Assembly (NCBI GenBank): GCA_016794595.1
Contig: JAEUJN010000110.1
Span: 1-49,106, forward strand
Source of the DNA: Kineosporiaceae bacterium
GTDB lineage: Bacteria; Actinomycetota; Actinomycetes; Actinomycetales; Kineosporiaceae
Reading direction: 5' to 3'
Length of the DNA stretch: 49,106 nucleotides
Shown piece by piece: positions 44,600 to 49,106 of the stretch. Below the pieces are notes generated by a model. That model saw nothing but the letters and a program-made list of their open reading frames with translations, was not told the DNA's origin and ran no database searches. Every line of letters begins with the position of its first letter. The first letter of the stretch is position 1. A program made the translations under genes and the position numbers.

Positions 44600-46531
44600 T
44601 CAGACCAGCTCGGCGTCGGAGTGCACGTGCAGCAGGGCGGGGCCGTCGACCGCGAAGAGTCGACGCATGCCCTCGTCGAGGTCGTCACTGGTCCGGACGC
44701 CGATACCGGTGGCCCCGCACAGCTCGGCGTACCGGGTGAAGTCGGGGTTGACCAGTGAGGTCTGCCAAACCGGCAACTCCCCGGCCAGCTGCTCTTTGCT
44801 GATCTTGCCCAGGGCACCGTTGTCCAGCAGCACGTGCTTGATCGGCATGCCGTACTTCACGGCCGTCGTCAGCTCGGCGAGGTACTGGCCGAACCCGCCG
44901 TCCCCGGTGACCGCGACCACGGGGCGGGTCGGGTCGGCGGCCCAGGCACCCATCGCCGCCGGGTAGCCGAAGCCGATCGAGCCGAGGTAACCCGACATCA
45001 GCACGGGTTGACCGGCGCTCTCGAAGTAGCGGCCGAACGAGTAGGCGTGGTTGCCGACGTCGACGGCGATGACGGCGTCCAGCGGGCAGTGCCGGCCCAA
45101 GGCGGCGAGCACCGCCGCGCTGGGGACCCCGTGGCCCCGATCGTCCTGCGCCCGGCGGGCCTTCTCGGCCCGCCAGATGGCCCAGCGCGCCGCGACGTCC
45201 TGGCGCTGATCCTGCGCCGCGGCGTCGTGGGAAGTCGCGGCGTCGAGGGCACGTACGGTCACGGCCGCGTCGCCGAGGACGCCCACGGTGACGGCGTCGA
45301 ACCGGCCGATGGCGCTGGGGGTGTCGTCGATCTGCACGATCGGCTTGTACGGCGCGATGCCGGTGTGGTTGGCGAACGAGGCTCCGACCACCAGCAGCAG
45401 GTCGGACTCGTTCATCAGCCACGAGGCGACGGGGGTACCGGAGCGACCCAGGACGCCGCCCCCGAGCGGGTGCGTGTCGGGCACCAGGCCCTTGGCCCGG
45501 AAGGTGGTGAGCACCGGCGCCCCCAACCGCTCGGCGAGTGCGCGTACCTCGGTGCCGGCCTCACGGGCGCCCTGGCCGACGATGATCACCGGGCGACGAG
45601 CGCCCCGCACCAGCTCGGCTGCCGCGGCGAGGGCGTACGGTTCGGGGCGGACGGCGCGGTGCGCGCGACGTCCGGTGGGAGGCGTGGCAAGGGCATCGGA
45701 CGCCACCTGCTGCATCTCGTCGGGCAGCACGAGGTGGGCCACGCCGCGGCCGTCGACGGCGCGCTTGACGGCCGTCGCCGCCAGTTCGGCGTGGTTCGAG
45801 GCGCTGTTCAGGGTGACCGTTGACAGCGCGACGTCCCGGAACACCGCCGACAGGTCGACGTCCTGGAAAGCGCCGCGCCCCAACACCTTCGAGGGCACCT
45901 GACCGCTGATCGCGAGCACCGGGGCGCCGTCCAGCTTGGCGTCGTACAGGCCGGTGAGCAGGTTGGTCGACCCCGGGCCGGCGATGGCGAAGCAAGCCGC
46001 CGGGCGGCCGGTGAGCTTGCCGTACGCGGACGCCGCGAAGGACGCCGCGCCCTCGTGGCGGATCCCGATGTAGCGCAGCTCGCCGCGCTCCTCGGCCCGG
46101 CGCAGCGCGTCGGCGAAGCCGAGGTTGGAGTGCCCCACCATGCCGAAGACCACCTCGACTCCCCAGGCAACCAGGGTCTCGACCAGGACGTCGGAGACCG
46201 TCCGGACAGCGGCCGGCGGCTCGGGCAGCAACACGTAGGTGCCGTCGGCGCGCTCGTCGACCGGGAAGGACGGCACGGCGTCGGAGAACCCGGCCGGTGG
46301 CTTGCCGGTCAGCGGGTCGTAGTCGTACCCGTGCCACGGGCAGCGCAGCAGCCCGCCCTCGATCGAGCCCTCCCCGAGCGGCCCGCCCTGATGCGGACAG
46401 TGATTGTCGAGCGCTCCCACTCGCCCGCCGCAACGGGTCAGCGCGATGCTGCGCCCGTCGATGGTCGCGGTCTGCACCCGTCCCTCGTCGGGGACGGCGT
46501 CCAGGCGGTGCCAGCGGCCTGCGCCGGTCAT
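44600..46531 (-). CDS. Rieske [2Fe-2S] domain fused to a thiamine diphosphate enzyme (pyruvate oxidase-like)
   Basis: The 643-residue protein has a complete Rieske domain at the start: CPHQGG with Cys45/His47 and CPWHGYDYD with Cys64/His67. A full three-domain ThDP enzyme follows, with cofactor-activating Glu160 in GIRHEGAASFAASAYGKLTG, a central domain with VIIVGQGAREAG, and the ThDP motif GDGGFGQYLAEL (from about 543) to Asn571 in LLDNGALGKISKEQLAG. The C-terminal region resembles PoxB pyruvate oxidases more than acetolactate synthase. An ATG at 46531 overlaps the preceding FMN gene stop in ATGA. A Rieske centre could take electrons from the ThDP-bound intermediate. The fusion is unusual to my knowledge; the substrate is inferred only. 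Confidence 0.88.
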   Translation of the reverse strand: MTGAGRWHRLDAVPDEGRVQTATIDGRSIALTRCGGRVGALDNHCPHQGGPLGEGSIEGGLLRCPWHGYDYDPLTGKPPAGFSDAVPSFPVDERADGTYVLLPEPPAAVRTVSDVLVETLVAWGVEVVFGMVGHSNLGFADALRRAEERGELRYIGIRHEGAASFAASAYGKLTGRPAACFAIAGPGSTNLLTGLYDAKLDGAPVLAISGQVPSKVLGRGAFQDVDLSAVFRDVALSTVTLNSASNHAELAATAVKRAVDGRGVAHLVLPDEMQQVASDALATPPTGRRAHRAVRPEPYALAAAAELVRGARRPVIIVGQGAREAGTEVRALAERLGAPVLTTFRAKGLVPDTHPLGGGVLGRSGTPVASWLMNESDLLLVVGASFANHTGIAPYKPIVQIDDTPSAIGRFDAVTVGVLGDAAVTVRALDAATSHDAAAQDQRQDVAARWAIWRAEKARRAQDDRGHGVPSAAVLAALGRHCPLDAVIAVDVGNHAYSFGRYFESAGQPVLMSGYLGSIGFGYPAAMGAWAADPTRPVVAVTGDGGFGQYLAELTTAVKYGMPIKHVLLDNGALGKISKEQLAGELPVWQTSLVNPDFTRYAELCGATGIGVRTSDDLDEGMRRLFAVDGPALLHVHSDAELV

Positions 46532-47850
46532 CGCGCTACCCCGGCGTAGCTCACGCCGACCAGGTCGGCGACGTCCCGCTTCCAGCTGGTGAGGTCGCGG
46601 GGGGTGAAGTGACTCAGCGAGTGGTGGCCGCAGGCGCGGGCCAGCACGACCATGAGCTCGGTGATCGCGCCGAGGTAGCGAGTGAGCTGTTCGGCGCTCC
46701 GCTGCACGGGAAGCCGCGCCCTCAGGTGAGGTTTCTGGGTGGCGATCCCGACCGGGCAGTTGTCGGTGTGGCAGGCCCGCATGCCGACGCAACCGATGGC
46801 CTGCAGCGCGACGTTCGAGACGGCGACCGCGTCCGCACCGAGGGCCAGTGCCTTGACCACGTCCTGCGCGCGGCGGATGCCCCCGGTGGCGACCAGGGTG
46901 ACGTGACGTGCGCCGGCCAGGTCGAGGTGGCGGCGGGCCCGGGCGAGGGCCGCCATCGTCGGGACGCTGATGGTGTCGCGGAAGATCGTGGGTGCGGCGC
47001 CGGTGCCGCCGCCGCGGCCGTCGAGGATCACGTAGTCGATGCCGAGGTCGAGTGCGGCGTCGAGGTCGGCCTCCACGTGCTGGGCGGACATCTTGACCCC
47101 CACCGGGATCCCGCTGCTGCGCTCGCGCACCCGGTCGACCACCGCGCGGGCGTCCAGCAGCGTCGTCCAGTCGGTGAACCGGGCCGGCGAGACCGCGGGT
47201 GTGCCCTCGGGCAGGCCTCGCACCTCGGCGATGCGCCCCACCACCTTGCTGCCGGGCAGGTGGCCCCCGGTGCCGGTCTTGGCGCCCTGGCCGAGTTTGA
47301 GGTGCAGCGCCTGCACTTGGTCGAGGATCGCCTCGTCCCAGCCGAATCGCCCCGAGGCGAGTTCGTAGAGGTAGCGGGACGACTCGGCCTTCTCCTCCGG
47401 CAGCATGCCGCCCTCGCCGGAACAGATGGCCGTGCCGGCGGCCTCGGCTCCGCGGGCGAGTGCGGTCTTCGCCTCCTGGGACAGGGCGCCGAAGCTCATG
47501 TCCGAGACGAAGACCGGGACCTGCAGCCGCAGGGGCCGGGCAGCGGCCGGGCCGATGGTGACCGCGGTGTCGACCGGGGCGTCATCCAGCAACGGGAACC
47601 GGTGCAGTTGCGCGGTGAGGATCTGCAGGTCGTCCCAGGTGGGCAGCTCGGTGCGCGGCACCCCCATGGCGGCGACCTTGCCGTGAGCGCCGCGCAACCC
47701 GTTGCGCGCCAACGCGTGGATCTCGCTGACGTAGGGCTCTTCGGGAGTGTCCTGGTGCGGGTCGTCGAACAACCGGTCGTAGGTCGAGGTGACGGCCCGT
47801 TCGGGGCGCATCGAGCGGTAGGCCGCCAGGTCGGTCGTGCTGATGACCAC
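46528..47850 (-). CDS. Glutamate-synthase-type FMN oxidoreductase domain (GltS_FMN)
   Basis: From the GTG at 47850 the frame gives 440 residues with the glutamate synthase FMN barrel (FVSDMSFGALSQEAKTALARGAEAAGTAICSGEGG, LKLGQGAKTGTGGHLPGSKV, VKMSAQHVEADLDAALDLGIDYVILDGRGGGTGAAP) and a [3Fe-4S] region with GCVGMRACHTDNCPVGIATQ. There is no amidotransferase domain, so ammonia or another donor would be needed. No Shine-Dalgarno precedes this GTG, and the frame runs on upstream without a start to a TAA at 47950 that joins it to the Rieske coding stretch. Whether it is made separately is unclear. It overlaps the Rieske-ThDP gene by ATGA. Confidence 0.82.
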   Translation of the reverse strand: MVISTTDLAAYRSMRPERAVTSTYDRLFDDPHQDTPEEPYVSEIHALARNGLRGAHGKVAAMGVPRTELPTWDDLQILTAQLHRFPLLDDAPVDTAVTIGPAAARPLRLQVPVFVSDMSFGALSQEAKTALARGAEAAGTAICSGEGGMLPEEKAESSRYLYELASGRFGWDEAILDQVQALHLKLGQGAKTGTGGHLPGSKVVGRIAEVRGLPEGTPAVSPARFTDWTTLLDARAVVDRVRERSSGIPVGVKMSAQHVEADLDAALDLGIDYVILDGRGGGTGAAPTIFRDTISVPTMAALARARRHLDLAGARHVTLVATGGIRRAQDVVKALALGADAVAVSNVALQAIGCVGMRACHTDNCPVGIATQKPHLRARLPVQRSAEQLTRYLGAITELMVVLARACGHHSLSHFTPRDLTSWKRDVADLVGVSYAGVAR

Positions 47851-47949
47851 GGAGCCGTCGACGACCTCGGCCGCGAACTTGTGGATCCGCTCGCTCGGGT
47901 TGTACGCCGAGATCCCGGTGTCGAGCCGGTAGTCCCAGCCGTGGACGCC

Positions 47950-48144
47950 TTAGATGAGGTCAGGTCCGTCCACGCGCCCGTCGGCGAGCAGTGCGCCGCG
48001 GTGCGGGCAGCGACCCTCGAAGACGTGCACCTCGTCGCCTCGGCGCACGATGACCAGGTCGAGGCCCTCGGCCTGCGCGCCCGTGGGGGCGTTCTCCGTG
48101 AGGTCGGTGAACCGGGCGATCGCCAGGTGCGTGGCGTTGTTCAT
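47950..48144 (-). CDS. Rieske domain fragment ending at the in-frame TAA
   Basis: This 64-residue frame starts MNNATHLAIARFTDLTENAPTG and contains the first Rieske box, RCPHRGALL (Cys46/His48). It ends at DLI before the second box. Without the second Cys-x2-His pair it cannot hold a Rieske cluster, so on its own it should be non-functional. ATG 48144 is preceded by TTGGAGCGTTAC, a good Shine-Dalgarno. It diverges from the 48237 gene, and the 92 bases between them should hold both promoters. Confidence 0.7.
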   Translation of the reverse strand: MNNATHLAIARFTDLTENAPTGAQAEGLDLVIVRRGDEVHVFEGRCPHRGALLADGRVDGPDLI

Positions 48145-48236: not shown

Positions 48237-48875
48237 ATGGGCACCGAGCTCGACACCGACACCCTCGCCACCACCCGACGCTCGTTGCACGCCGTTGCGG
48301 AGTTGGTGATTGCCGGACCGCAGCACGGCCGGTTCGGCACGATCCGGTTGCAGGTCACCCCGGGGGGATTCGGCGGTGTGCGGCTGTCACTGCGGGTCGA
48401 GGGCACGACCCTGCACCACGACGGCGGCAGCGTCCCGCTGCGCGGTACCTATCGGGGGCTCGCCGAGGCGGCCGGCGTGGAGGTGGGCCTTCCCGCCGGT
48501 CTCTACACCGACGTGACCGGCACGGACCCCGATGAGCAGGTCGTCGTCGACGCGGCCGCTGCGGCCCACCTCGCGGACTGCTGGCAGCGGGGCGAGGAGG
48601 CGCTGCGGCTGCTGGCGCCGGAGGTGACGCCCGTGCTGTGGCCCGAGCACTTCGACGTCGGCATCACGGTAGACCAGGTGAACTACGGCGTCTCACCTGG
48701 CGATGGCTACCACCCTTCGCCCTACGCGTACGTCGGTCCCTGGACGCCGCCGCAGGGCGGTTTCTGGAACGCCCCGTTCGGTGCGGCGCGGCCCATCGAG
48801 CAACTGCCGGACGCCGCCGCCGTGGCGGAGTTCTTCGCCGAGGGCCGTCGCCTCGCCGGCGGCCAGGGCGGCTGA
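48237..48875 (+). CDS. Conserved-looking hypothetical protein (212 aa)
   Basis: The 212-residue soluble protein starts MGTELDTDTLATTRRSLHAVAELVIAG and has ALRLLAPEVTPVLWPEHFDVGITVDQVNYGVSPGDGYHPSPYAYVGPW and GGFWNAPFGAARPIEQLP near the end. AGGAGGCACC precedes its ATG, a strong start. The Trp-Pro-Glu-His-Phe-Asp and Phe-Trp-Asn-Ala-Pro-Phe motifs look like a conserved pocket, but I do not recognise the family. It is divergent from the Rieske genes, which may mean a shared promoter region. Confidence 0.8.
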   Translation: MGTELDTDTLATTRRSLHAVAELVIAGPQHGRFGTIRLQVTPGGFGGVRLSLRVEGTTLHHDGGSVPLRGTYRGLAEAAGVEVGLPAGLYTDVTGTDPDEQVVVDAAAAAHLADCWQRGEEALRLLAPEVTPVLWPEHFDVGITVDQVNYGVSPGDGYHPSPYAYVGPWTPPQGGFWNAPFGAARPIEQLPDAAAVAEFFAEGRRLAGGQGG

Positions 48876-48892
48876 TCCGACACGCGACCCGT

Positions 48893-49106
48893 TCAGAAGG
48901 GTGGGTGTTCGCTCTCGGTGGTGATGACCCTGCCGGTGGGGGTGGTCCATTGGGTGATGGGCAGTCCGGTGCCTGGGTCGGTGAGGGTGGGGGTGAAGCC
49001 TGGTTCGCGGAGGCGGTGGTGGTGTTTGCAGAGGGGGTGCAGGTTGCACTCGCAGGTCGGTCCGCCGTCGGTGTGGGGGGTGCGGTGGTCGATCTCGCAG
49101 GTGATG
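48893..49106 (-). CDS. HNH nuclease domain of a DUF222-type protein (N-terminus outside window)
   Basis: The frame is open to the window edge and gives the last 70 residues. TCEIDHRTPHTDGGPTCECNLHPLCKHHHRLRE is the HNH core with Cys, Asp-His and Asn-x-x-x-x-Cys-x-x-His. It ends with PITQWTTPTGRVITTESEHPPF, the usual tail of actinomycete DUF222/13E12-type HNH proteins. These are multicopy and of unknown role; some belong to repeat elements. The main part of the gene lies beyond the window. Confidence 0.9.
   Translation of the reverse strand, partial: ITCEIDHRTPHTDGGPTCECNLHPLCKHHHRLREPGFTPTLTDPGTGLPITQWTTPTGRVITTESEHPPF

Follow-up and report, generated by a model that had tools for sequence, protein, structure and literature searches.

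An in-frame TAA at a Rieske cysteine codon of a conserved Rieske-FMN fusion gene in a Kineosporiaceae genome, probably a very recent nonsense allele

Among proteins of known structure, glutamate synthases are the best matches of an intact member of the gene family described here. GltB is a protein of about 1,500 residues, whose further domains include an amidotransferase domain and which has no Rieske domain. The structure model of an intact relative of the gene in this study (L036; mean pLDDT 74.4, pTM 0.64) had glutamate synthases as its best PDB matches in a Foldseek search (E = 2.1e-17), and the seven glutamate synthase rows heading the Foldseek list showed 26–30% identity. The matches found by profile search were glutamate synthases and Rieske ferredoxins. 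Similar to GltB (PDB 7mfm, 1ea0, and 1ofd), the gene of this study possesses an FMN domain of the same fold and of similar sequence. Different from GltB with its further domains, however, it comprises 538 codons, and the amidotransferase family was absent from its Pfam result. By its motifs, the intact enzyme presumably contains FMN, likely a [3Fe-4S] cluster and a Rieske [2Fe-2S] cluster. It looks like a putative oxidoreductase that would shuttle electrons between the flavin and the Rieske center, perhaps working with a thiamine-diphosphate (TPP) partner enzyme described below. A literature search that covered titles and abstract openings found no study of the Rieske/GltS-FMN fusion or of its pairing with a Rieske-TPP enzyme.

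Stops inside bacterial protein-coding genes have been surveyed previously. The part of that survey drawn on here reports them as widespread and mostly short-lived and traces them to annotation artifacts, sequencing errors, pseudogenes, and functional genes with premature stops; its large-scale part accepts only stops common to at least two genomes, to exclude errors (Belinky et al., 2021, PMC7918605). Similar to the stops in the part considered, the one described below is a single stop in an otherwise conserved gene. Different from them, it was found in one genome, is two changes away from Cys, and strikes a metal ligand. As far as this part of the survey goes, the case fits its picture.

The window, i.e., the whole stretch of DNA that was analyzed (49,106 nucleotides), is the entire contig C10 of a Kineosporiaceae genome of 4.95 Mb in 123 contigs, which is 99.44% complete and 1.47% contaminated. 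When translated, a minus-strand frame of 538 codons running from position 48144 to 46531 contained one internal stop only, and its terminator is TGA at 46528–46530. The internal stop is a TAA at 47950–47952 on the minus strand. It is codon 65 and stands at the third Rieske ligand position, where relatives have the Cys of the C-x2-H box; it is preceded by GRVDGPDLI and followed by GVHGWDYRLDTGISAYNPSE. Codons 1–64 (47953–48144, minus strand) encode the N-terminal Rieske part with the first box GRCPHRG, and these 64 residues matched the Pfam Rieske profile PF00355 with 38.2 bits (cut-off 20.3). The following 473-residue part (46528–47949, minus strand) consists of the Rieske remainder and a glutamate-synthase-type FMN domain, and matched the Pfam Glu_synthase profile PF01645 with 314.1 bits (cut-off 20.4). 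The first Rieske box (C-x-H) is intact, with CPH at codons 46–48 and both ligands invariant among 20 sequences, and the second box (C-x2-H) is broken, reading stop-x2-H. Moreover, a Cys-x5-Cys-x4-Cys motif, which we take to be the [3Fe-4S] motif of glutamate synthase, is kept downstream (CVGMRACHTDNC), its three Cys also being invariant (n = 20). The initial annotation had described a TAA that replaces the second Rieske Cys within a single Rieske-FMN frame and that lies two base changes away from a Cys codon (TGC or TGT to TAA). Both descriptions were confirmed, the former by translation and by the Pfam matches of both parts.

The same codon was compared among relatives of the gene. From the scan of named genomes, the best 80 of 113 relatives were taken, with the 33 weaker ones outside the comparison. 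A search of 198 genomes, own genome included, added three close relatives, which duplicate three contigs of the best 80 (L005/L036, L006/L037, and L007/L040). The resulting 111 loci comprised the own locus, 82 counted loci, and 28 loci left out, in which the best match begins after residue 4. The latter are L112, which has a contig gap, and 27 loci at 31–39% identity, the own GltB among them. With the duplicates merged, the 82 loci represent 79 distinct contigs, or 80 with L112, and L038 and L039 are different records whose coding sequences are identical. All 82 loci reaching the site had Cys (65 TGC and 17 TGT, no stop) and kept the fusion at identities of 58.7–90.7%; L112, read separately, had TGC. 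Thus, a single protein is the normal form of the fusion, and the stop is private to the window, and a stop conserved in relatives is ruled out, as it was present in none of the 82 aligned sequences. The alignment of the second Rieske box in homologs that the initial annotation had proposed returned Cys throughout, and its option of two separately working proteins is unsupported as the normal arrangement. The record titles of the 80 distinct contigs with an intact fusion name many phyla. The nearest relatives with the gene are three Kineosporia-type loci (in G004, G007, and G009), whose coding sequences also occur, without a difference, in two Kineosporia genomes and an actinobacterial MAG and whose orthologs are 90% identical to the downstream part. 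For the eight Kineosporia-type and Pseudonocardia-type loci L034–L041, the identities over the 473-residue part were 87–91%. Among viral contigs, two pattern matches to the gene were obtained, neither of which was confirmed.

Similar to the gene itself, its surroundings are shared with relatives. The adjacent gene (44600–46531, minus strand) encodes a fusion of a Rieske domain with a TPP enzyme of the pyruvate oxidase/acetolactate synthase type, as seen by Pfam and translation, and has no internal stop. Its ATG overlaps the stop of the FMN gene (ATGA), and its dN/dS against the three Kineosporia-type loci was 0.14. Of 79 loci scanned for this partner, leaving out duplicates and L112, 50 gave a tblastn match, although some of these matches were weak or did not lie next to the gene. 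In each of the eight loci L034–L041, the match starts within 54 bases of the end of the FMN gene. On the other side, a divergent neighbor (48237–48875, plus strand), which has no Pfam or NCBIfam match, adjoins the ortholog in all eight loci of this group (three of Kineosporia type and five of Pseudonocardia type); other loci gave more distant matches. The window and L034–L041 are therefore alike in domain order, in the Rieske-TPP gene within 54 bases and in the divergent neighbor, and differ at the site of the stop, which is Cys in the relatives and TAA in the window. The last window positions (48900–49106) look, by eye, like the C-terminal part of an HNH-endonuclease-like protein, within which the contig ends; membership of this protein in a repeated family, if it holds, may account for the break.

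Comparisons of the window with the three Kineosporia-type orthologs yielded dN/dS values of 0.132–0.134 downstream of the stop and 0.44–0.50 upstream of it. The window is not alone in its faster N-terminal part, because the intact L005 showed similar values against two outgroups (0.17–0.20 downstream and 0.38–0.58 upstream). The window departs at two of 174 near-invariant columns, namely at the stop and at codon 344 (Ser in the window, Gly in 80 of 82), and the median sequence departs at one; by such departures the window ranks 59th of 83, ties included. In 437 columns with four agreeing outgroups, the window had 11–12 private replacements, compared with 13–19 per Kineosporia-type sequence, so that no relaxed selection after the break was detected as an excess of replacements on the window branch. 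As judged from these codon comparisons, both flanks of the stop look functional and are under purifying selection without measurable decay, as the initial annotation had held when it called the flanking sequence well kept. A neutral period of at least 0.015 substitutions per site was rejected in all three comparisons (P = 0.002–0.021), and one of 0.01 substitutions per site was borderline (P = 0.008–0.059); the test takes both branches to be equally constrained, and these comparisons are not mutually independent. Given that the pairwise dS downstream is 0.54–0.58, any loss must fall within the last few percent of the branch. On these sequence comparisons, the only compatible pseudogene would be a very young one.

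Thus, the locus probably carries a loss-of-function (nonsense) allele of very recent origin in the gene for a two-domain redox enzyme that is conserved otherwise. As in a pseudogene, the stop breaks a frame that is open in relatives. With such an allele, ribosomes would stop at codon 65 and release a free fragment of 64 residues, which would contain the first Rieske box alone (Cys46 and His48) and could not hold a [2Fe-2S] cluster. The FMN part would be unmade, or weakly made through an internal restart. Rare readthrough of UAA would insert a near-cognate amino acid rather than Cys, and even a full-length readthrough product would lack the cluster for this reason. Of the three options offered by the initial annotation, a freshly broken gene fits best with a stop found in one genome and an otherwise conserved gene without signs of decay; a wrong sequence retains some weight, and two separate proteins are unsupported as the normal arrangement. 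The absence of decay that is used here for young age is, however, equally expected if the gene still works somehow.

How the TAA arose bears on this reading. Ninety-one codons of the gene sit one step from a stop, and TAA is the product of 18 of the 106 single-step nonsense changes possible in it. A TAA at Cys is odd, because a Cys codon cannot belong to these 18 changes. Codon-level comparison with seven relatives revealed substitutions alone around the stop, with neither insertion nor deletion. Two adjacent substitutions without other damage are an unusual mutational path, which counts against a nonsense allele. By rough estimate, the chance that TGA would move on to TAA by a further neutral step within the available span is roughly 1%. 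Since the neutral time is too short, one multi-nucleotide change or an error is likelier than two steps, and in a nonsense allele TAA would more likely have arisen as one multi-nucleotide event than through TGA. A local template for the change was searched for in the window with an 11-base patch at up to 2 mismatches; the patch occurred six times, itself once, against 7.1 expected, and no source was found. The initial annotation had also considered a chance strike on a metal ligand unlikely. This is right insofar as a stop among 538 codons would strike one of the four Rieske ligands with a chance of about 0.7%, but the figure is post hoc, and any special meaning is weakened by another lone stop in this genome that lies at an unrelated residue.

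This second stop is a lone in-frame TAG in an ABC transporter ATPase (L172:16709, at about 56709 of contig C27 of the own genome G000), just before the LDEP motif. The protein matched Pfam ABC_tran and is presumably FecE-like. The residue is Gln in all five aligned homologs, which remained from nine candidate loci after four without a suitable frame were dropped. It was identified in a coding-potential scan of 449 kb that included the window, in which the target TAA ranked 29th of 2631 candidate stops; among the 30 top-ranked stops, nine were translated, and the ATPase stop was the one true interruption. A second scan (849 kb, K = 25) gave 24 candidates, of which 10 were inspected; four of these had already been viewed in the first scan, and none of the six newly viewed by eye was a true interruption. 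Because the 849-kb scan missed the target itself, this census is insensitive, and the sampled sequence contains at least two interruptions. With the second lone stop known, neither Cys nor TAA sets the target case apart. Nonsense mutations at a low background level would be expected to give such a stop, and so would base errors; it does not tell the two apart.

Such an error, in sequencing or assembly, or a minority variant taken into the consensus, would leave the cell itself with an ordinary Cys codon and an intact gene. We consider this somewhat unlikely, although it is a serious possibility. The gene otherwise looks fully functional, and its stop was found in a single draft genome, 1.15 kb from a contig end. 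Two adjacent wrong bases are uncommon in a short-read consensus, which speaks against an error if the assembly was made from short reads, and so does the lack of an insertion or deletion next to the stop. The independent lone stop fits a real mutation load, but it fits errors equally well. The present data give no positive distinction between a nonsense allele and a base-calling or assembly error.

It is improbable that the gene is split in practice, with an internal start giving rise to a working FMN protein without Rieske domain. The remark of the initial annotation that the downstream part lacks a good ribosome site was followed up by eye, where candidate starts are GTG at 47850 and ATG at 47667–47665 with AAGG upstream. 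Distant FMN-domain relatives match from near residue 95 of the 473-residue part (e.g., L010 with an open frame of 445 residues), and the low downstream dN/dS would suit a working FMN protein. However, the fusion is kept in all 82 loci, and the Rieske remainder behind the stop can still be aligned residue for residue. A private split in the lineage of the window by internal restart is conceivable, though unsupported.

It is very doubtful that Cys or a stand-in is inserted at UAA, or that UAA is kept to throttle the enzyme, either of which would yield full-length Rieske-FMN protein at a low level. Decoding of TAA as Cys or selenocysteine, through a suppressor tRNA or a local recoding signal, would suit a stop exactly at the Cys position with conserved flanks, but the own genome offers little for it. 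Its tRNA genes numbered 43 in the Rfam search, each with an anticodon by ARAGORN, and none had the anticodon TTA; the one tRNA-Cys gene, with the anticodon GCA, had no full-length match other than itself. For the tRNA family RF01852, the one match above the cut-off was tRNA-Ser TGA by ARAGORN, and 14 of 14 control genomes had matches, 5 of them above the cut-off, so that weak matches are uninformative. No match to SelA was found in the own genome. A match to prfA above the cut-off and a second release-factor homolog below it were present. The sequence near the stop folds no better than its shuffles (z = −0.22), which does not indicate a structured recoding signal. TAA at L158:8198, between frames for a CDP-alcohol phosphatidyltransferase and an acyltransferase, is an ordinary terminator, and among the terminators of long GC3-rich candidate frames in 849 kb, TGA occurred 316, TAG 37, and TAA 8 times. 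Selenocysteine is rejected on the SelA and RF01852 searches, and reassignment of TAA throughout the code by the release factors, the tRNAs, and the TAA at an ordinary gene boundary. None of 82 aligned relatives shares the stop. Recoding is extremely unlikely and possible only via something undetected, such as an unusual tRNA under the search threshold.

A second copy of the gene was not found in the own genome, where three other matches were 34–47% identical over part of the query. As a nonsense allele, the case is of importance mainly to annotation, in which the reading frame should be kept as one gene flagged as interrupted rather than listed as two. Of more lasting interest is the intact family, in which a Rieske domain is joined to a GltS-type FMN domain, often with a Rieske-TPP enzyme encoded next to it, in loci with record titles from many phyla.
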